Assembly (NCBI GenBank): GCA_004299485.1
Contig: SCQP01000001.1
Span: 372,001-436,000, forward strand
Length of the DNA stretch: 64,000 nucleotides
Direction: 5' to 3'
Source: Acidobacteriota bacterium
GTDB taxonomy: Bacteria > Acidobacteriota > Terriglobia > Terriglobales > SCQP01
Under the pieces are notes generated by a model that saw only the letters and a program-made list of their open reading frames with translations, did no database searches and was not told the DNA's origin. Position numbers and translations under genes: made by a program. Below, one piece after another: positions 20,742 through 31,810 of the stretch; position 1 is the first letter of the stretch, and each line of letters begins with the position of its first letter.

Positions 20742-21121
20742 TCGTTGTCGACGCGAACATTATCGTGTACTACTGCCTGCCCGGACCGCAAAATGAAGCG
20801 GCGAAGCTGCTGTCAGTTGTCGAGCCTGACTGGCAGGCTCCCGCGCTGTGGCGCTCGGAGTTGCGGAACGTGCTGGCTGGCAAGCTACGCCATGGCATGG
20901 CGATGTCAGCGGTGCTCGACGCGCTGTCGGATGCGGAGCGATGCATTGCCGATACGCATGAAGCGGACAGCCGGCGCGTAATGGAACTGGCCGCTACGAC
21001 GCATTGCACCGCTTACGATCTCGAATATGCGGCACTGGCGCTGCAACTCCACGTAGATCTGGTCACGATGGACACGGAGCTGCTACGGGCGTTTCCGGAG
21101 ATTGCGCGGCCGCTGGTTTAA
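20738..21121 (+). CDS. PIN-domain toxin (VapC/FitB-type)
   Basis: 127 residues from TTG 20738, overlapping the antitoxin stop as TTGA. IVVDANIIVYYCL gives the first Asp, LWRSELRNVLAG the Glu, and CTAYDLEYAALAL with LVTMDTELLRAFP the C-terminal acidic residues. Together with the FitA-like antitoxin this is the usual FitAB/VapBC pairing. Its stop codon overlaps that of the convergent BNR gene by four bases (TTAA). Confidence 0.86.
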   Translation: MIVVDANIIVYYCLPGPQNEAAKLLSVVEPDWQAPALWRSELRNVLAGKLRHGMAMSAVLDALSDAERCIADTHEADSRRVMELAATTHCTAYDLEYAALALQLHVDLVTMDTELLRAFPEIARPLV

Positions 21122-24100
21122 TTGCCGGCTCCGCCCAGCAGCGCGTTGGCTTGCGCTTGCAGGGCGTCGAGCTGGGCTTTGAGCACCTGATAGCGGGCGA
21201 TGGCGTCCTGACCGATTTGCTGATCGGCGCGGTTGGTCATGCCGTAGAGATAGGTGATCTGGGTTTGCAACTCGGGCTGGCTGTAGCGGATGGCAGGAGT
21301 GATGAGCTGCGCCGCCAGCGCCTCCAGTCTGGCCGGATCGACCTTGGGCGAGGGATCTTTTTGGGCTGTGCGGATGCGAGCGACGAGTTGGTTGACTTGG
21401 CTGACCAACGCCAGCACGCGCTGGTTGTGATCGAATTGCTGCTGCAAATCCACCTGCGTCACGCCGTCGCCGGTGTTGCGGGGATCTTCAACCAGCGTCA
21501 GCGGCTGAGTTTGGCTCCAGGAGCCGAAGCTGAGGCGCACCTGATATTGGCCGGGAACGGCCAGCGGGCCGTTACCACCGTGCGGCTGGCGGGCGCTTTC
21601 CCATGGGCCGGGATAGTGCAGATTCCAGGTGAAGCGGTGCATGCCGGGCGTGGCGGCGAGGCGCTGGGGCGAGCCGAAGCGGCCAAAGCGGCTGCGGGCT
21701 GGAGCGGGCGCGTTGCTGGAAAACGTCTGGATCACGTTGCCGGCCGAATCGAGGATTTCGAGCTGCAGCGGCGCGGCGGGCGTGGCTTTGAGGTAGTAAC
21801 CGATCAGAGCGCCCGGTGCAGGATAGGATGGGCCGGCGGCGCGTCCGAAACCGAAGAACCCGTAACCGCTGCCGGAGCGGATGGCGGTGCGAGGCGCAAA
21901 CAGGTAGGCGTTCGAGGCCTCGATGGCCGGCGTCAGGTGCTCCAGCGGGCTGAGATTGTCCAAAATCCAATCGGAGCGGCCTTGGGTGGACAGGATCAGA
22001 TCGCCGTGAGCGATTTTGATGTCGGTGACGGGCGTATGCGGCAGATTGAGCTGGAACGGCTGCCAGTGGCCGCCGTTGTCGAAGGAAACGTACATACCGA
22101 ACTCGGTGCCAGCGAAGAGCAAGCCGGGGCGGACGGGATCTTCGCGGACCACGCGCGTGGGCGAGTTGCCGGGAATGCCGTTATGGCCATCGGTGAGCAG
22201 CGTCCAGTGGGCGCCGAAATCGCCGGTGCGGTAGATGTAGGGCTTGAAGTCGCCAAGCAGATAGCGATAAATCGCGGCGTAAGCGCCGGCGGCGGAATAG
22301 GGGCTGGGGTCAATGTTCTGGACGCGGCCACCGGGCGGGAGGCCTTGGGGCGTGACATTGGCCCAGGTTTTGCCACTGTCGCGGGTCACGTAGATGAGGC
22401 CGTCGTTGGAGCCAGTCCAGATCACGCCTTTTTGGACCGGCGAGACGCGGATGGAGTAGAGCGTACTGTAGACTTCTTCGCCGGTGGCATCGCGGGTGAT
22501 GGGCTGGCCGCTGGCAATTTGCGTGCCCGGAGGATGCGCGGTGAGATCGGGGCTGATGCGCTGCCAGTGCACGCCGCCATCGAGGGTGCGGTGCAAGTAT
22601 TGCGAACCATAGTAAACGGCGTAGGGCGGATGGGGCGAGACTTCCATCGGCGCCACGCGCTGGAAGCGGTCGATGAGGCGCGGCGGGTTGTTGCCGTAGA
22701 GTGATTGCGCGCCGACCCAGTAATTCATTTCGTTGTGGGTGCGGATGTCCTCGCGCGTGAACTGGCCCTTGCAGCCGCCGTAGACGATGTCGGGTTTGGC
22801 GGGATCGGGAATGATGGGGCCGGTTTCGCAGCCGGGGCCGGAACGGAAGGCCTGATCATCGCCGAGCGGCAGGCTGGGGATGATGACGGTGTCGTCGTCC
22901 TGCTGGGCGCCATAGATGCGGTAGGGGTGCTGGTCATCCACGGCGACCTGATAGATTTCCGCGGTGGGCTGATTGAGCTGCGTGCTCCAGGTCTTGCCGC
23001 CGTCGAGCGAAACGTTGGCGCCGCCGTCGTTGGCCTGGATCATGTCGAGCGAATTGCTGGGATTGATCCAGATGCCGTGATTGTCGCCATGCGGCGTGCG
23101 CTCGCGCTGAAAGGTTTTGCCGCCATCGGTGGACTGGAACCAGTTCTCGTCGCCAACGTAAACCACATCGGCATGGTTGGGATCGACGCCGAGCGCGTCG
23201 TAGTAGAAGGGGCGCGTGATCAGCTCGGCGTTGCCGTTGATGAGCGACCAATGCGCGCCTGCATCTTCGGAGCGGTACAGGCCGCTGCCGGGCTTGGCCT
23301 CGATGAGCGCGTAGATGCGGTTGGGAGCGACGGCAGAAATCTTGATATTGCTGCGGCCGAAGAGCTGCTCGGGCAGGCCGTTGCCGAGCTTGGTCCAGTG
23401 ATCGCCACCGTCGGTGGATTTGTACAGGCCTGCACCCTGGCTGGCTTCTGAGCCGCTGATGATGGTCCAGGGCTTGCGCAGACCGTGCCAGAGGCCAGCG
23501 TAGAGAATCTGCGGGTTGACCGGATCCATGGCCAGCGCGGATGCGCCCAGCTCGGGCGAGATGTAGAGCACCTTCTGCCAGGTTTGGCCGCCGTCGCGGC
23601 TGCGGTAGACGCCGCGATCGGGGCCGTTCGCGAAGGGATTGCCCTGCGCGGCAACGTAAACAAGATTGGGGTCATGCGGCGCAATGTCAATGAAGCGAAT
23701 CTGGCCGGCGTCGGGCAGGCCGGCGAACGTCCAGGTTTTGCCGGCGTCGGTGGATTTGTACAGGCCGCGGCCGATGGAGACGTTGCTGCGAATGTCGGCT
23801 GAACCCGTGCCGGCATAGACGACGTTCGGATCAGATGGCGCGACAGCGATGGCGCCCATCGACCCAACGGTGAAGTACTTGTCGCTGACGTTGCTCCAGG
23901 CTGCGCCGGCATCGGTGGTTTTCCAGACGCCGCCCCCGGTCGAGCCGAAGTAGAAGGTGTTGGGCTCGCTCGCGACGCCGGCGACCGCGGTCACGCGGCC
24001 GCCACGGAAGGGACCGATCAGGCGATAGCGCATGCCGCTCCAGAAAGCGGGATTGACCGGCATGGGAATCTGAGGAAGGGCAGGAAGCGCGGCAACGGCC

Positions 24101-24144
24101 AGCAGGGCGAGCGGCAGCAAGCGGTAGATTCGGCGACGCAGCAT
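21118..24144 (-). CDS. Secreted BNR/Asp-box (VPS10/sortilin-like) beta-propeller protein, paralogue
   Basis: 1,008 residues. A signal peptide (RLLPLALLAVAALPALPQ) precedes 'YRLIGPFRGGRVTAVAGVAS', matching 'WRSIGPFVGGRAVAIAGVPS' in the 9-12 kb paralogue. Asp-boxes repeat through residues about 60-680 (STDAGKTW, SRDGGQTW, STDGGDHW, SLDGGKTW, TLDGGVHW, TRDSGKTW). The C-terminal about 300 residues hold a beta domain and a helical end rich in Gln. Function unknown; probably periplasmic or exported. A perfect TATAAT lies 7 bases before the ATG. The two paralogues flank three ADOP permeases. Confidence 0.86.
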   Translation of the reverse strand: MLRRRIYRLLPLALLAVAALPALPQIPMPVNPAFWSGMRYRLIGPFRGGRVTAVAGVASEPNTFYFGSTGGGVWKTTDAGAAWSNVSDKYFTVGSMGAIAVAPSDPNVVYAGTGSADIRSNVSIGRGLYKSTDAGKTWTFAGLPDAGQIRFIDIAPHDPNLVYVAAQGNPFANGPDRGVYRSRDGGQTWQKVLYISPELGASALAMDPVNPQILYAGLWHGLRKPWTIISGSEASQGAGLYKSTDGGDHWTKLGNGLPEQLFGRSNIKISAVAPNRIYALIEAKPGSGLYRSEDAGAHWSLINGNAELITRPFYYDALGVDPNHADVVYVGDENWFQSTDGGKTFQRERTPHGDNHGIWINPSNSLDMIQANDGGANVSLDGGKTWSTQLNQPTAEIYQVAVDDQHPYRIYGAQQDDDTVIIPSLPLGDDQAFRSGPGCETGPIIPDPAKPDIVYGGCKGQFTREDIRTHNEMNYWVGAQSLYGNNPPRLIDRFQRVAPMEVSPHPPYAVYYGSQYLHRTLDGGVHWQRISPDLTAHPPGTQIASGQPITRDATGEEVYSTLYSIRVSPVQKGVIWTGSNDGLIYVTRDSGKTWANVTPQGLPPGGRVQNIDPSPYSAAGAYAAIYRYLLGDFKPYIYRTGDFGAHWTLLTDGHNGIPGNSPTRVVREDPVRPGLLFAGTEFGMYVSFDNGGHWQPFQLNLPHTPVTDIKIAHGDLILSTQGRSDWILDNLSPLEHLTPAIEASNAYLFAPRTAIRSGSGYGFFGFGRAAGPSYPAPGALIGYYLKATPAAPLQLEILDSAGNVIQTFSSNAPAPARSRFGRFGSPQRLAATPGMHRFTWNLHYPGPWESARQPHGGNGPLAVPGQYQVRLSFGSWSQTQPLTLVEDPRNTGDGVTQVDLQQQFDHNQRVLALVSQVNQLVARIRTAQKDPSPKVDPARLEALAAQLITPAIRYSQPELQTQITYLYGMTNRADQQIGQDAIARYQVLKAQLDALQAQANALLGGAGN

Positions 24145-24688: not shown

Positions 24689-25102
24689 CTAGGAACCACC
24701 GGCCAGGTGCAGGCCGGTAACCTGGAGATTGGCATTAGCCAGAGTCCAGTCGAGAAATTGCGTGCCTCGGAGGAAGTGGCAGGCCACGACTACATCGGTG
24801 GCCGTGGCGCCATGCTGGCGATTCTCGACGGCGGAAGCGCTATCGAAGCTGCCGTATTTACTCTCGAAGCCCTGCCAGAGCTTGGCCATTTGCATCGGTG
24901 GGAGAGCTTTTTGGAGCGCCGGACTGAAACGGGCGTAGACCTGAGAAAAATGCTGACCGGCAAGTTGATACGTGATCGCCACGGCGGCAGTGCTAGCCTT
25001 TACGTCGCCAGGGCTGTCGCCCTTGTTGTTGACACAGCCGCCGGCCAAAAGACAGGCTATGGCCAGCAGCGGAAGGCTCATTTGGCGCCAGGCACGGAGC
25101 AC
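24689..25102 (-). CDS. Putative lipoprotein
   Basis: 137 residues. LPLLAIACLLAGGC near the N-terminus is a lipobox, so the protein is expected to be lipid-anchored after cleavage before Cys23. The mature part (about 110 residues: AGQHFSQVYARFSPALQKAL, then QMAKLWQGFESKYGSF) resembles small DUF3887-like domains; this match is tentative. The start is uncertain: GTG 25102 supplies Arg residues for the signal n-region but lies directly on GAAGGAG; ATG 25081 is the alternative. It follows the M42 gene's stop region on the opposite side by 11 bases, same strand. Confidence 0.6.
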   Translation of the reverse strand: MLRAWRQMSLPLLAIACLLAGGCVNNKGDSPGDVKASTAAVAITYQLAGQHFSQVYARFSPALQKALPPMQMAKLWQGFESKYGSFDSASAVENRQHGATATDVVVACHFLRGTQFLDWTLANANLQVTGLHLAGGS

Positions 25103-25113
25103 TCCTTCAATTA

Positions 25114-27216
25114 TTACCAGGAATGGGCGAGAGTCTCGATGATCTGCGTCAGGGAATCCAAATCCCTGGTGTCGATAACTTCCGCGGGCGAGTGCGAGGT
25201 GCGCAGGGGCCAGCCCAAGGGCAAATCGACCGAGCCATAGGGCAGAAAAGCGGAACCATCATTGCCGCCGCTGGTTTCGCCAATCTGCACGGGAATGTGG
25301 GCGGCAAGCGCCATCGAGCGCACGCGGCGGGCGAGGTCCCAGGGGGTAATGCTGGAGTCGTCGATGGCGCGGATGACGAAGCCATCGCCGAGCGCGGCGT
25401 CGGCGTAGCGGTGCGACTCGAGGGGCGAGTCGGAACTGACGAAGGTGTCGATGGCGAAGACGTAATCAGGCGCATGGCCGGCCGCGGCCATGCGGGCAGC
25501 GATAACTTTGGCGCCCAGCAGGCCTTCTTCCTCGCCGGTGGACCAGGCGAGGGTGACGTCGCGACCAGGCAGGCTGGGGCCCAGCGCCCAGGCGGCGGCA
25601 ATGAGCGCGGCACAGCCGACACGATCGTCAAAACTGCGGGCACTGGCGCGGTCGGCCAGCAGCGCGCGATAGCGTTTGGGAATGGTGACGGTGTCGCCGG
25701 CGGCAATGCCCAACGCCTGAACTTCGGCCGGCGTGTGCGCACCAACGTCCGCCCAGAGGGGCATGCCACGCTCGAATTTGAAACCGGGCTGATCCCAGCC
25801 TTGCGGGAGTTCGAGCACGGCGGGGCGCATCCCCTTGCCGGTATGCACGACGAGCGGGTGACCAATGTAGAAGCGCAGGTCGACGCCGCCGCGGGTTTCG
25901 AGGCGCACCCGGCCGTCGGGGGCAATCGCTTGCACGGCGAAACCGGTTTCATCCTGATGGGCGACAAACAGGATGCGGGGGGCGTTGGGTCCGCTATCAG
26001 CCCCATGCAGTACCAGGTCGCCGGCGCTGTCGCTGATGGGGTGCGCCCAGGGCGGCAGCAGGTTCTGGATCGCCTGCGCGACGCGCGACTCGTGCGGATG
26101 CACGCCATACTGCGCGACCAATTGCTGCAGCGCCGCGGTGGGCGTGGGTGCGGTAGCGGGGCGCGCGGGCAAGGGCGGGAGCGGCAGCAGCGCAGGCTGC
26201 GGCAGCAGCGGTGCCGACGGGGTCTCGCCGAGTGCTTTCTCCACGCGCGCGACCAGATCGTCCAGCGGTTTGGCGTCGATCGTGGCGGCGGGTGTGGAGC
26301 GCCAATGCACCGGAATCGACCAATATTGGAGGGTGGGAACCGGTGCCGCAGCCTGCGCCGCACGTAAGCGCCGGGCCTGGCGCGGCGGCGCCGGCCAGCC
26401 TACCAGTACCGCCGGGACGGGAGCGGCGGCGTTCGTCTGCTGCGCAAGCTGCTCGCGCACGCGAGCGAGGCCGCGTCCACCGCTCCATTGCTGCGTCACA
26501 AAGGCGATGGTGACCGGGCCGGGCAGTTTGGCCGCGTCCACATGGCGCAGGGCTTCGACCAGCACCGCCGCGCCATAGCGGTTGCCGATGCTAAAGCCGG
26601 TAAGCGCACCATCGCCGAGCACCTGCAACTGGCGGTCGAGCGCAATCGGGCTGAGCACATGGACGCCGGCGGCGCGCGTCTCCGCGGCGGAGGAGGCGCC
26701 GACGTCGACATACATGTTGTCCAGGTTTGCCGGATCGGGCGGGTTCAGGCGGCCGCCGCGCAAGTGGACCGAAAGGCCGGTAACGACGCCTTGCAGCCAA
26801 TGGCCGGATGGGGTCTGCACCTGAATAGGCTGACCTGTGGCCAACACATTGAACAGGGGCAGGAAACCGCGCGTGGGCAGGCGCTCGACGCGCAGATAGC
26901 CCTGGCTGGTGATGGCGCTGACTACGTAGCCCGGCTCGTCGAGCGGCGCCACCAGCAGCAGCGGCGCGCCCGTGGCGGCGGCTGGCGGCGAGAGAGTGAC
27001 AATGACATCGCCGAGATTGTCGCGCGTGGGATTGAAGGCGGCAAGTTCATCGGCGATGTGATTGGCCAGCGCGCTCTCGTAGCCAGACACCGCGGGCGTG
27101 GCCACGTAGTTGCGCAAATCCTGCGCCATGGAGCCGGAGACGGCCTGGGCGATGGCAAGGGCAGCTAAAAGAGCGCACGTAGCCGAAAGTGCAAGGAAGC
27201 GGCGCACGCTTTCCAT
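25114..27216 (-). CDS. Secreted double M42-type aminopeptidase, N-terminal half catalytically degenerate
   Basis: 700 residues from ATG 27216; a signal peptide (VRRFLALSATCALLAALAIAQ) favours this start over GTG 27243. Two M42 (glutamyl aminopeptidase/PepA-like) domains stand in tandem, joined by a Pro/Ala-rich linker near residue 330-360. The C-terminal half has the metal and catalytic motifs: FVAHQDETGF, SFDDRVGCAA, STGEEEGLLGA, FAIDTFVSSDSP and a final SHSPAEVID. The N-terminal half keeps the fold pattern but reads LLVAPLDEPGYVV, SIGNRYGAAV and VTQQWSGGRGL at these sites, losing the His, Asp and Glu. Predicted exported metallo-aminopeptidase; substrate unknown. Confidence 0.82.
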   Translation of the reverse strand: MESVRRFLALSATCALLAALAIAQAVSGSMAQDLRNYVATPAVSGYESALANHIADELAAFNPTRDNLGDVIVTLSPPAAATGAPLLLVAPLDEPGYVVSAITSQGYLRVERLPTRGFLPLFNVLATGQPIQVQTPSGHWLQGVVTGLSVHLRGGRLNPPDPANLDNMYVDVGASSAAETRAAGVHVLSPIALDRQLQVLGDGALTGFSIGNRYGAAVLVEALRHVDAAKLPGPVTIAFVTQQWSGGRGLARVREQLAQQTNAAAPVPAVLVGWPAPPRQARRLRAAQAAAPVPTLQYWSIPVHWRSTPAATIDAKPLDDLVARVEKALGETPSAPLLPQPALLPLPPLPARPATAPTPTAALQQLVAQYGVHPHESRVAQAIQNLLPPWAHPISDSAGDLVLHGADSGPNAPRILFVAHQDETGFAVQAIAPDGRVRLETRGGVDLRFYIGHPLVVHTGKGMRPAVLELPQGWDQPGFKFERGMPLWADVGAHTPAEVQALGIAAGDTVTIPKRYRALLADRASARSFDDRVGCAALIAAAWALGPSLPGRDVTLAWSTGEEEGLLGAKVIAARMAAAGHAPDYVFAIDTFVSSDSPLESHRYADAALGDGFVIRAIDDSSITPWDLARRVRSMALAAHIPVQIGETSGGNDGSAFLPYGSVDLPLGWPLRTSHSPAEVIDTRDLDSLTQIIETLAHSW

Positions 27217-27233
27217 GCTACTCGGGATGGCGG

Positions 27234-27262
27234 TTGACATCACAATGCAATTTGCGCATCAT
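27234..27262 (+). promoter_or_regulatory. Promoter of vapB4
   Basis: A perfect TTGACA (27234-27239), a 17-base spacer and CATCAT (27257-27262). The predicted start site is the A of the ATG at 27269. The elements lie between the divergent M42 gene and vapB4. Confidence 0.55.
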
Positions 27263-27268
27263 TTTGCT

Positions 27269-27541
27269 ATGCGGACGACAATATCCGTAAACGATGACTT
27301 ATTGGAAGAAGTGCATCATTATGCCAGCAGCCGCGGCCTGCGGTTCAGCCGGGCGGTCGAAGAGCTGCTCAAGCGGGGACTGAAGCCACGCCCCCTTCCG
27401 GTGCAGTCCCCAGGGGACGGGCTAGAGCCATTCGACCTTCCAGCCGGTTCCCCGGCAATGACATTAGAGAGATTGCTCCAGCTTGAGCGGGACATGGAAG
27501 ATGAAGAGGACGCAAGGAAATGGTCGCCCTCCTCGACGTAA
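27269..27541 (+). CDS. Ribbon-helix-helix antitoxin of a VapBC-type pair
   Basis: 90 residues from ATG 27269. MRTTISVNDDLLEEVHHYAS followed by RGLRFSRAVEELLKRGLKP is a ribbon-helix-helix (strand TTISVNDD, two helices). A Pro-rich middle leads to an acidic tail (LERDMEDEEDARK) that fits toxin neutralisation. An upstream ATG (27245) is in frame, but would place the -10 inside the gene; the promoter spacing selects 27269. It overlaps the toxin gene by 22 bases. Confidence 0.75.
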   Translation: MRTTISVNDDLLEEVHHYASSRGLRFSRAVEELLKRGLKPRPLPVQSPGDGLEPFDLPAGSPAMTLERLLQLERDMEDEEDARKWSPSST

Positions 27542-27957
27542 ATGTTCTCATCGCGATTACGTGGCCAGCCGATCCGGCACATTCAAAGTGCCGCGAATGG
27601 TTTATACACACGTGCCCTCAGGGATGGGCAAGTTGCCCATTGACGCAAACCGGGTACGTTCGCGTCATTACGAGCCCGGGATTTTCGCCTGATGCACCTT
27701 CGATCGCAGAGGCCGTTTCCAAGCTTGAACGCCACATTGCCCACCGGGATCACCAATTTTGGGCAGCAGATCTGCAACTGCCAGAAGTGTGGCGCTATTT
27801 CGTTGGCCGGCTGCAAGGGCATCGGCAAATCACGGATGCATACCTGTTGGCGCTTGCCATTCATCGCGGGGGCGTGCTGGTCACACGAGATAGAGGTATT
27901 CGTTCGCTGCTGCCCGCGGGCAGCCCACTGGTGAAGCATCTGCTGGTGCTGGAATGA
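27520..27957 (+). CDS. PIN-domain toxin (VapC-type ribonuclease)
   Basis: 145 residues. MVALLDVNVLIAITWP gives the first Asp; the second motif reads CPLTQTGYVRVITSPGF, the TQxGxxR form seen in one VapC subfamily; QITDAYLLALAIHRGGVLVT and RDRGIRSLL give the C-terminal acidic residues. HRDHQFWAADLQLPEVWRYF is the lid region typical of the same subfamily. Start ATG lies inside the antitoxin gene. Convergent with the ADOP gene, whose stop begins 2 bases further on. Confidence 0.87.
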   Translation: MVALLDVNVLIAITWPADPAHSKCREWFIHTCPQGWASCPLTQTGYVRVITSPGFSPDAPSIAEAVSKLERHIAHRDHQFWAADLQLPEVWRYFVGRLQGHRQITDAYLLALAIHRGGVLVTRDRGIRSLLPAGSPLVKHLLVLE

Positions 27958-27958
27958 A

Positions 27959-30586
27959 TTATTCGTAGCGCAGGGCGACGGTGGGATCGACGCGGGTGGC
28001 GCGGCGGGCGGGGAGATAGCAGGCGGCGAGAGCCACCAGAATCAGGACGGCGGCGACGGCGAGCAGCGTGACGGGATCGTCGGGGCGGATCTGGTAGAGC
28101 ATGCCGCTGAGGAAGCGCGTGAGCGCCAGCGCCGCGGCCAGGCCGAGGATCACACCCAGCAAAGCCAGGCGCATGCCTTCACGCACGACCGAGCGCAGGA
28201 CATCGGCGCGCTGTGCGCCGAGCGCCATGCGGATACCGATCTCGTGGACGCGGCGGCTGACGGTATAGCTGAGCACGCCGTAAAGGCCGATGGCGGCGAG
28301 GAAAACGGCGCAGAGCGCAAACAGCGCACTGAGGGTGGTTTCGTAACGGCGCGGAGCGGTGCTGGCAGCGAGGACGCCTTGCAGGGTTTGCTGGCTGGCG
28401 ACCGCTACGTTGCGGTTCACCCTGGCAAGCACGCGCCGGATCACGGCGCCGGCGGCTTGAGGCGACAGGCGCGTGCGTACGATCAGGCTCTCGCCGGGTT
28501 CAGCGAAGAACCAGATGGGAACGTAAACGGCGAGTGCAGCCGGTTTCTCCGCGCCATCACGCACGTCGCCGACGACGCCGACGATTTCGAAGGGCTTGGG
28601 CGTTTCGTTCGGCGCCCACATCAGGTGCAGGCCGAGGGGATTGCGGCCGGGCAGCAGGCGCTGGGCGACGCTTTGGGAGATGACGGCCACATCGTTGCCG
28701 CGATCAGATTCCGCGATGCGCCGGCCGGCGATGAGGGGCAGCCCCATGACCTGGCTCAGCCCTGGGCTGACGAAATAGAAATCACCTAGTTTGACATCCG
28801 TTTTGGGCCGCGGGGCTTCGCGGAACTCGATGTCATCGCCCCAGCTTCCGCCCAGTAGCGGCAGCACCGGCGTAACGCCGGCGCCGTCAATGCCGGGCAG
28901 CTCTCGCACTTGGGCCAGGGCCTGGTGATAGAAGCCGGGAAACCCGGGAGGGGAGCGGAAGTCGGAGTAAGGTGTCACCAGCTTCAGCGCCAGCACATTC
29001 TCCTGCTGCATCCAGGCGTTGGCCTGCCCGATGCGCGCCAGACTCTGGACGAGCAGCAAAGCGCCGGCGAGCAGGATTCCGCACAGCGCCACCTCGGCCA
29101 CAACCAGGGCGTTGCGCAGGCGGCTGTGGCCGCCGCTGACGCGCGCGCCGGCACTGCGCATGGCCTCGCCGGGCTGTACGCGGGTGAGCAGCAGGAGGGG
29201 TAGACCGGCAAACAGCAACGCGGCGACCATCGCCGCGGCGAGCGTAAACCAGAGGGCTGGCGCGCTCAGGTGAATCTCAGCCAGGCGCGGAATGCCAACG
29301 GGGGCGTGCCGGACAAGAAGATCCAACGCGCCGGCGGCAAGGAGTAAGCCGAGGCCGCCGCCGCCAACGGCCAGCAGAGCGGCTTCCGTCAGGAATTGCC
29401 GGAGCAAGCGGCGCCGCGTGGCGCCGAGCGAGGCGCGCATGGCGACTTCGCGGGCGCGATCCGTATTCTTCGCCAGCAGCAGATTGGCCAGGTTCACGCA
29501 GACGATCAGCAACACAAGCAACGCGGCGGCTTCGAGCATCCACAAGGCCCGTACGGCGGGGCCGAGGATGGCAGCCTTGAGCGGCGTGAGCGTCGCGTAA
29601 AGGTTGAATTGACCTGGGGCAACGTGCCGGTAAGAGTCGCCGCGGCGCGCAATGCCGCCTTCGACGGTGTTCAGTTGCGCCAGGGCCTGCTGCGGGCTGA
29701 CTCCAGGCCGCAAGCGCGCGATGACGGTGTATTGGAACCCGCCGATGCCGGGCGTGCCATCGCCGGGGGGGGCGGGGATATAGTCGGGAAGAAACAGCTC
29801 CGGCGCTGGACTTTTCCATACGCCGGGAAAACGGAAGTTGGCGGGTAGCACTCCGATAACGCTGTACGGGTTGCCGTTCAGCGTAAGCGATTTCCCGAGC
29901 GCATGCGCGTGGCTGGCCGCCACCACCACTTCGTGGTTATGGCCCGGCTCAGTTTCGCCCGGCAGAAAGTTGCGGCCGCGCGTCATCGCAACGCCCAGCA
30001 GCGGAAAAAAGTTCGCCGGCACGAATGCCGCCTGCACCTGGCGCGTACGGCCGCTGCCGGTGAGTACCAGCTTTTGCGGGAGAAGCGCGGCCATGCCCGC
30101 AAAAGCAGAACAGCGCGTTTGCCAGAGTTTGAAGTTGCCGCCGTTGGCGTCGAACTGGGGCGCGAAGTGGCTCCATTGGGGGACGACCTCGTGAATGGTG
30201 TACAACTGCTGCGGCTGGCGATACGGCAGCGCGCTCAGGAGCATGCCGTTGAGCATCGAGAAGATAGCGGTGTTGGCGCCGATACCGAGAGCGAGAGTGA
30301 GAATCGCGACCGTGGTGAAACCGGGAGAGCGGCGGAGCTGGCGCAGGCCCTGGCGCACATCGGCGCGCAGTTCGCTCAGGAGGCGCACGCCGAGCGCCTC
30401 GCGGCACTCTTCCTGGCAGCGCTGGTAGCCGCCGAATTCGATGCGGGCGCGGCGCTCGGCCTCGGCAGAGTTCAGGCCTTCAGATGCCAGTGCGGCGGCG
30501 CGGCGGCGGAGATGCGCCTGCAGCTCTTCTTCCATTTCGCGCTCAAGTTGGGCGCGGCGGAATAGCCAGGCGAGGAGAGCCTTCAT
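27959..30586 (-). CDS. ADOP-family permease (D) with N-terminal cytosolic helical extension
   Basis: 875 residues. Unlike the other four ADOPs, about 75 residues precede the first helix (LLAWLFRRAQLEREMEEELQ, then AHLRRRAAALASEGLNSAEA and ARIEFGGYQRCQEECREA), the helical 'permease prefix' found in ADOPs encoded with PadR regulators. The first helix (VAILTLALGIGANTAIFSML), two periplasmic core domains, two FtsX domains and the terminal ATRVDPTVALRYE follow. ATG 30586 overlaps the padR stop as ATGA, so the pair is translationally coupled; the longer upstream start would lie inside padR. The cargo is unknown. Confidence 0.93.
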   Translation of the reverse strand: MKALLAWLFRRAQLEREMEEELQAHLRRRAAALASEGLNSAEAERRARIEFGGYQRCQEECREALGVRLLSELRADVRQGLRQLRRSPGFTTVAILTLALGIGANTAIFSMLNGMLLSALPYRQPQQLYTIHEVVPQWSHFAPQFDANGGNFKLWQTRCSAFAGMAALLPQKLVLTGSGRTRQVQAAFVPANFFPLLGVAMTRGRNFLPGETEPGHNHEVVVAASHAHALGKSLTLNGNPYSVIGVLPANFRFPGVWKSPAPELFLPDYIPAPPGDGTPGIGGFQYTVIARLRPGVSPQQALAQLNTVEGGIARRGDSYRHVAPGQFNLYATLTPLKAAILGPAVRALWMLEAAALLVLLIVCVNLANLLLAKNTDRAREVAMRASLGATRRRLLRQFLTEAALLAVGGGGLGLLLAAGALDLLVRHAPVGIPRLAEIHLSAPALWFTLAAAMVAALLFAGLPLLLLTRVQPGEAMRSAGARVSGGHSRLRNALVVAEVALCGILLAGALLLVQSLARIGQANAWMQQENVLALKLVTPYSDFRSPPGFPGFYHQALAQVRELPGIDGAGVTPVLPLLGGSWGDDIEFREAPRPKTDVKLGDFYFVSPGLSQVMGLPLIAGRRIAESDRGNDVAVISQSVAQRLLPGRNPLGLHLMWAPNETPKPFEIVGVVGDVRDGAEKPAALAVYVPIWFFAEPGESLIVRTRLSPQAAGAVIRRVLARVNRNVAVASQQTLQGVLAASTAPRRYETTLSALFALCAVFLAAIGLYGVLSYTVSRRVHEIGIRMALGAQRADVLRSVVREGMRLALLGVILGLAAALALTRFLSGMLYQIRPDDPVTLLAVAAVLILVALAACYLPARRATRVDPTVALRYE

Positions 30587-30915
30587 AGCTCTTCCCTGCT
30601 CGCGCGCAAAACCGCGCCCATGGCTTCCACCAACTGCTCCCAATCGGCGGTCTCCTCGCGCAGGCGTTTGCGGCCGGTGGCGGTGAGGGCATAGAACTTG
30701 GCACGCTGATTATTATCCGAGACGCCCCAGCGGGCGGTGAGCCAGCCGCGGCGGACGAGACGATAGAGCGCGGGATAGAGCGCGCCCTGCTCGATGCGCA
30801 GCGCGCCGGCGGAGATTTGGCCGATGCGCACCAGAATGCCGTAGCCATGCTGCGGCTCGAGCGAAACGGCTTTGAGAATGAGCAGGTCGAGGGTGCCGGG
30901 CAGGAGTTGCGCCAT
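30583..30915 (-). CDS. PadR-family transcriptional regulator
   Basis: 110 residues. MAQLLPGTLDLLILKAVSLE, QHGYGILVRI, IEQGALYPALYRLVRRGWL and KFYALTATGRKRL are the winged-helix signature of PadR (G.L.L.iL..L....hGY.i, lYp.L.rLe..G.i, y.lT..G...l). PadR proteins of this size are dimeric repressors. It heads an operon with ADOP permease D and probably represses it and itself; the inverted repeat just upstream of the ATG is the best operator candidate. An AGGA site within the right arm of that repeat gives a good ribosome binding site. Confidence 0.92.
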   Translation of the reverse strand: MAQLLPGTLDLLILKAVSLEPQHGYGILVRIGQISAGALRIEQGALYPALYRLVRRGWLTARWGVSDNNQRAKFYALTATGRKRLREETADWEQLVEAMGAVLRASREEL

Positions 30916-30961: not shown

Positions 30962-31810
30962 TCAACCCAAGTCGGGATCGCAGCGCTCTTCGGGGTGCAG
31001 CGCGGGCGGCACGTCGGCGCCGGCAACGCGGGCGAGAATGCGATGAAGCTGGCGGACGCCTTCGGTGAGTGAGGCCGGGCCGGGCTGGAGAATATAGGTG
31101 GACTTGATCTCGTAGATATGGCCGGCGCGGACGGCAGCGGTCGCGTCCCAACCGGAGCGTGCAGCGATGGCGCGCTTGTTCACCTTCTGGCCGCACCAGG
31201 AAGCGATGACGACCTCGGGGTTGCGCCAGGCCGCTTCTTCCGGTGCAACGATGCGCTCGGTAGCGCTGGATCGATGGCGCAGCTCCGGAAATATGGGTTC
31301 GCCACCGGCGATTTCGATCAGCTCTTCGACCCAGCGGATGCCGGTAATGAGCGGCGCTTTCCATTCTTCAAACAGGACGCGAGGGCGGTGCGGGAATTTA
31401 GCGGCGCAAGCGGCGATCGCTTCGAGATTGGTGCGCAACTCCGTTTCGAGGGCGCGGCCGCGCGCTTCCGCGCCGACCAGGCGAGCGAGCGTGGCCATCA
31501 TGGCGAAGATTTCTTCGACGCTGCGCTGGTTAAAGTTGAAGACGGTGGCGCCGCGGCGCACCAGCTCGCGCGAAATATCCGCCTGCAGGTCGGAAAAGGT
31601 CAGCACCAAGTCGGGCTGCAGAGCGAGGATGGCGTCGAATTTGGCGTTGATGAAGGCAGAAACGCGGGGCTTTTTGCGCGCCTCCGGCGGCCGGACGGTG
31701 TAGCCGGAAACGCCTACGATGCGGTCGCCTTCGCCGAGGCGATAGAGCGTCTCCGTCGTTTCTTCCGTCAGGCAAACAATGCGTTGGGGCCAATTAGGCA
31801 AGACGGCCAC
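30962..31810 (-). CDS. TroA/BtuF-like substrate-binding-fold protein without signal peptide
   Basis: 282 residues from GTG 31810. QRIVCLTEETTETLYRLGEG, DRIVGVSGYTVRP, FDAILALQPDLVLTFSDLQ and VRAGHIYEIKSTYILQPGPA are typical of class III (BtuF/FhuD-like) binding proteins and of cobalamin-binding annotations. No signal peptide or lipobox is seen, so the protein would stay in the cytosol unless an unrecognised start exists. No permease or ATPase genes adjoin it. It overlaps the end of the decarboxylase gene by 17 bases, implying coupled translation; a shared role is suggested but unproven. Confidence 0.75.
   Translation of the reverse strand: MAVLPNWPQRIVCLTEETTETLYRLGEGDRIVGVSGYTVRPPEARKKPRVSAFINAKFDAILALQPDLVLTFSDLQADISRELVRRGATVFNFNQRSVEEIFAMMATLARLVGAEARGRALETELRTNLEAIAACAAKFPHRPRVLFEEWKAPLITGIRWVEELIEIAGGEPIFPELRHRSSATERIVAPEEAAWRNPEVVIASWCGQKVNKRAIAARSGWDATAAVRAGHIYEIKSTYILQPGPASLTEGVRQLHRILARVAGADVPPALHPEERCDPDLG

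Follow-up and report, generated by a model that had tools for sequence, protein, structure and literature searches.

A paired dead and intact M42 peptidase domain in Acidobacteriota that may build one composite active site

Why would a peptidase domain that keeps all of its catalytic residues be joined to a second copy of itself that has lost its metal site? The question is raised by a gene in the window (the whole stretch of 64,000 nucleotides of an Acidobacteriota contig analysed here), which an earlier note had read from the sequence as a tandem M42 peptidase with one dead and one intact domain. The coordinates it gave, 25114-27216, are correct, and the gene is read from the minus strand. 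The protein is laid out as follows:

25114..27216, minus strand: whole gene of the tandem M42 protein, stop included; 700 aa
27142..27216, minus strand: signal-peptide-like N-terminus, residues 1-25 (MESVRRFLALSATCALLAALAIAQA), from composition and comparison with relatives
26236..27135, minus strand: dead M42 domain, residues 28-327, from Pfam, the fold search and the ligand table
26146..26235, minus strand: proline-rich linker, residues 328-357, from the sequence
25117..26145, minus strand: intact M42 domain, residues 358-700, from Pfam, PDB sequence matches and the fold

The reading of one dead and one intact domain is borne out by Pfam on both halves and by the ligand columns described below. 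The Pfam M42 family matches the whole protein in two stretches with an E-value of 4.7e-70, and PF05343 scores 236 bits against a curated cut-off of 23.2, the best stretch being residues 410-690. Taken separately, the C-terminal half reaches 164.9 bits with PF05343 in the genome search, which places it in the M42 family, and the N-terminal half reaches 75 bits (5.3e-21, cut-off 23). The two halves also match each other directly, with 29% identity over 219 columns (E = 6e-8). By PDB sequence matches, PhTET1 is the best solved relative of the C-terminal half. No other M42 gene was found in the genome, which is 98.8% complete.

Aligned to TET2, the N-terminal half has the following replacements:

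26944..26946, minus strand: P91, replacing metal ligand H68
26584..26586, minus strand: G211, replacing bridging ligand D182
26485..26490, minus strand: Q243-W244, replacing the general base E212 and ligand E213
26398..26400, minus strand: G273, replacing ligand D235
26296..26298, minus strand: S307, replacing ligand H323

At the corresponding TET2 positions of the C-terminal half are:

25951..25959, minus strand: H420-Q-D422, ligand H68 and D70
25627..25629, minus strand: D530, bridging ligand D182
25528..25533, minus strand: E562-E563, general base E212 and ligand E213
25447..25449, minus strand: D590, ligand D235
25192..25194, minus strand: H675, ligand H323

The C-terminal half thus retains all five ligands and the general-base glutamate, as the earlier note had said. 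Its companion statement, that the N-terminal half had changed every motif residue, holds for six TET2 positions, but not for D70 of the HxD motif, which is kept as D93. Nor are replacement ligands from other residues of the N-terminal half apparent in the sequence. To place these changes among relatives, we aligned 67 dead-domain rows (~64 distinct genes) and 70 intact-domain rows (~66 distinct genes). The five ligands and the general base of the intact domain are unchanged in every relative covering each column, so that the ~66 intact domains keep every ligand, and the metal ligand E213 is absent from all ~64 dead domains. As judged from this alignment, a pattern shared phylum-wide by ~64 dead domains and the intact domains paired with them is far beyond chance, and the N-terminal half is best classed as a non-peptidase homologue, not as an M42 peptidase by function. 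Compared with that of most relatives, its stretch from the D235 to the H323 position is also short.

The dead copies with most ligands left belong to families f20 and f50. They still lack E213, and at the E212 position they have Gln, Ser or Gly, with Glu in one later-added f20 fragment. Five loci of these two families (L059, L060, L064, L066 and L068) encode dead partners that retain 2-3 of the five metal ligands, again without E213; from their sequences these look like intermediate stages of decay, with one metal possibly still bound.

Elsewhere the old metal site is filled by lineage-specific residues, Trp/Tyr in the window's order and Lys in Aminicenantes. Such new motifs are what might be expected if the dead half were a substrate-binding module, its pseudo-active cleft holding peptides or a cell-envelope ligand and feeding or regulating the living half, and pseudoenzymes do often bind ligands. 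However, the residues in the old metal site differ by lineage with no single conserved pocket evident, and the strictest conservation in the dead domain is found in a loop, not in the cleft. We therefore consider this role improbable.

The earlier note had proposed structure prediction of each half, and failure of the N-terminal half to adopt the M42 fold would have counted against its reading. An AlphaFold2 model of the N-terminal half alone, built from 11 sequences, has moderate confidence (pLDDT 68, pTM 0.69), and its residues 1-305 align with solved M42 structures at Z scores of 19-24. The matches include 4wwv (Z 24.4), PhTET1 (23.2) and TET2 (23.0), with M18/M20 relatives lower at Z 16-17. 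Together with Pfam, this rules out a chance resemblance of the N-terminal half to M42. As modelled, the dead half is a complete M42 fold, dimerisation part included. The C-terminal half, taken from the full-chain model, matches PhTET1 at Z 24.3. The pTM of the full chain, 0.74, gives only indirect support for a defined domain arrangement. The underlying alignment is deep in the N-terminal half only, and residues 566-602 and 612-649 of the model are poorly predicted. A MAFFT alignment merging the split N and C genes of relatives placed dead genes on the intact half and was left unused for the full model.

The loop in which the dead domain is most strictly conserved corresponds to the mobile loop that carries His123 in TET2, a residue conserved in 88% of the M42 family (PMC8993905). 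The two positions in the window protein are:

26764..26766, minus strand: H151, conserved loop histidine (TET2 His123 position) of the dead domain, kept in 66/66 rows (63 distinct) covering the loop
25795..25797, minus strand: W474 of the intact domain, at the loop position that is His in other M42 enzymes, from the alignment

The histidine is thus invariant in every dead-domain row that covers the loop, and it is present in only 4 of the 70 intact rows (3 distinct genes), where Tyr, Trp or Phe, usually Tyr or Trp, takes its place in 54. The intact half of the window protein, with Trp474, lacks a residue that is common in M42 without strictly defining it; all seven solitary M42 proteins examined have it. 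Seven residues are invariant among the dead domains; at six of these positions the intact domain most often has the same residue, and only at the loop histidine is its commonest residue a different one. In the alignment, then, the loss of the metal site and that of the loop histidine are reciprocal between the halves. The intact-half loop varies in length, which makes its column assignment less certain, and some of these loops have an unconserved His nearby. In two loci (L050:6080-7348 and L051:6080-7381) the intact partner carries, where the His123 loop would be, a long insert rich in Pro, Ala and Gln, as if this loop had been freed of constraint.

Two of the three distinct exceptions among intact domains come from one genus, g83 (two genomes; L082 and L128), where the intact half, although paired, carries a His at the loop position. 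The third is the intact-type enzyme of genome G462, for which we found no dead partner in the genome or on its 11-kb contig. Retention of the loop histidine by an unpaired enzyme is what a division of labour between the halves predicts, here as a sequence-based control from a single genome. No further unpaired intact-type enzymes turned up in G462's class, where the genomes of the other matches already show a dead partner. A candidate in G704 was ruled out as a control, its contig ending just upstream of the gene.

How old is this arrangement, and is it maintained? The fused form is present in the genus and family of the window and has a patchy distribution in the sister family of its order. 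In Candidatus Aminicenantes, the two domains are encoded by separate adjacent genes, dead then intact, nearly touching or overlapping and both with signal-like starts. A dead-domain profile was searched against 396 Acidobacteriota genomes, in which it found the dead/intact pair in many further families, both fused and split, and also against five genomes, three from archaea, to which other loci had led. Family f30 (L072, L073) has a split pair in reversed order, with the intact gene first, and family f20 has a fusion in one genome (L061) and a split pair in others (L064, L066). In the three archaeal genomes, which hold the nearest solitary enzymes, the profile matched more weakly, to what we take to be ordinary M42 proteins. 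No conserved operon was seen around the pair: the neighbours examined differ between genomes, a weak test made by eye except in the window. In a tree, a long branch with full support separates all dead domains from the intact and solitary domains. The tree, built by a quick method with SH-aLRT support only and with several long branches, is consistent with the dead copy having arisen once.

The dead half evolves faster than the intact half in nearly all compared pairs, and in the window's genus it has become shorter, both of which could be signs of a decaying duplicate without function. However, dN/dS between close pairs is similar to modestly higher in the dead half (0.11-0.46) than in the intact half (0.05-0.33), and therefore both halves are under purifying selection. 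The dead half has moreover been retained with its partner throughout the phylum, whether fused, split or reversed. Decay without function is hardly credible as an explanation.

The dead half could also be a purely structural, non-catalytic partner, contributing a dimer or cage interface, help in folding or stability outside the cytosol, with the loss of the loop histidine from the intact half reflecting a changed substrate or cage architecture. The full M42 fold with its dimerisation part, the free variation of most other dead-domain positions and the faster evolution of the dead half would all fit such a partner. It leaves unexplained, however, the strict retention of the loop histidine in the dead domains, its loss from nearly every intact domain, and its presence in the sole unpaired intact-type enzyme, that of G462. 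We think this reading somewhat unlikely.

We favour, at a probability of roughly 60%, a reading in which the protein is an exported dead:active pseudo-dimer with one composite active site, the dead half completing the site of the living half. The earlier note had suggested that the dead domain controls assembly or binds substrate. This open-ended proposal is sharpened here to completing the active site. The split-gene pairs and the selection acting on the dead domain point that way, and the reciprocal loss of metal site and loop histidine does so most of all. An ancestral M42 gene would have duplicated; one copy would have lost its metal site while keeping the mobile loop with its His toward the active site of the neighbouring subunit, and the other would have kept the metal site and lost the loop histidine. 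Duplication, loss of the metal site, reciprocal loss of the loop histidine, retention of the pair and selection can all be traced in the sequences compared. The two halves may then form the usual M42 dimer contact, through which the loop of the dead half would reach the active site of the intact half. The dead half would thereby supply the loop histidine, for substrate holding and perhaps water activation, as well as half of the dimer interface, and we would expect neither half to work well alone in the presumed peptidase activity, with one composite site per pair. Fusion, in some lineages including that of the window, would fix a 1:1 ratio that is elsewhere left to two adjacent genes.

Export is part of this proposal. 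The protein starts with two arginines, a hydrophobic stretch and AQA, resembling the n and h regions of a Sec signal peptide, and from this composition it is probably exported and periplasmic. The earlier note had also considered a location outside the cytosol unusual for the family. Export does seem likely, but it is not special within Acidobacteriota because four solitary acidobacterial M42 proteins also have signal-like starts (4/4 examined, against 0/3 archaeal relatives). Exported M42 enzymes may thus be common in the phylum. The solitary acidobacterial M42 proteins of L013, L014, L038 and L039, which have signal-like starts, carry a Glu at the D235 position.

The nearest M42 (TET) aminopeptidases are PhTET1 (PDB 2cf4/2wyr) and PhTET2 (1y0r), whose fold is common to both halves of the window protein. 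They share the metal ligands and general base with its C-terminal half and the loop His with its N-terminal half. Each TET subunit is a single domain with both a metal site and a loop His, whereas the window protein splits the two. Unlike the window protein, the archaeal relatives tested have no signal-like start. The TET-type assembly is a dodecamer of tetrahedral shape, put together from dimers. Two different M42 paralogues likewise assemble together in the PhTET2-PhTET3 heterododecamers, whose homodimeric units come from two TET aminopeptidases (PMC4220976), and in YtoP-YsdC of B. subtilis, but in neither are they fused.

A parallel in the way of working is found in M16 peptidases: mitochondrial processing peptidase, other active/inactive M16B pairs (such as TTHA1264/TTHA1265) and M16A/M16C fusions each combine a metal-bearing half with a homologous half that completes the active centre. 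There too the halves may come from separate genes, in some cases neighbours, or form a single fused chain. The M16 fold and family are unrelated to M42, and the likeness is not one of descent; the Pfam scan of the window protein returned M42, M20 and M28 only, which leaves it outside the M16 sequence family. For the M42 pair the mechanism is inferred from sequence. We found no earlier report of an M42 pseudoenzyme or a tandem M42 protein in the open-access literature searched, which is weak evidence of absence. M42 also goes unmentioned in a 2024 review of metallopeptidase pseudoenzymes.

The His of the TET mobile loop has been reported near the active site of the neighbouring subunit. The distance between the two across M42 structures ranges from about 4 to over 20 Å, and His123 mutants of TET2 are weakened, not dead, so action in trans is itself a hypothesis. 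In the Acidobacteriota pair, evolution appears to have run the separation experiment, having placed the metal site and the loop His in different chains. Because each element of such a dead:active pair can be mutated alone, the question of action in trans becomes directly testable. If our reading is true, M42 joins the few peptidase families with an essential dead partner, of which M16 is the best known, and a number of Acidobacteriota M42-family matches are each half of a two-part enzyme. The broader claim, that this M42 lineage has one active site split between two proteins and exists as an obligate exported one-site pseudo-dimer, with fusion in several lineages, that may have abandoned the tetrahedral cage, seems to us to stand at about even odds.

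Downstream of the M42 gene, on the same strand, lies a 1008-aa Sortilin-Vps10/BNR-repeat protein (21118-24144, minus strand), and a DUF3887 protein (24689-25102) sits between it and the M42 gene. On the other side, divergent from the M42 gene, is a VapBC-like pair (27110-27957, plus strand), made up of a short ORF with weak VapB/DUF6364 matches, each under its curated cut-off, and an overlapping PIN-domain protein (2.7e-10). Beyond this are an 894-aa MacB/FtsX-type permease preceded by a PadR-type regulator (27959-30915, minus strand) and a periplasmic binding protein of the Peripla_BP_2 family (30962-31810, minus strand).
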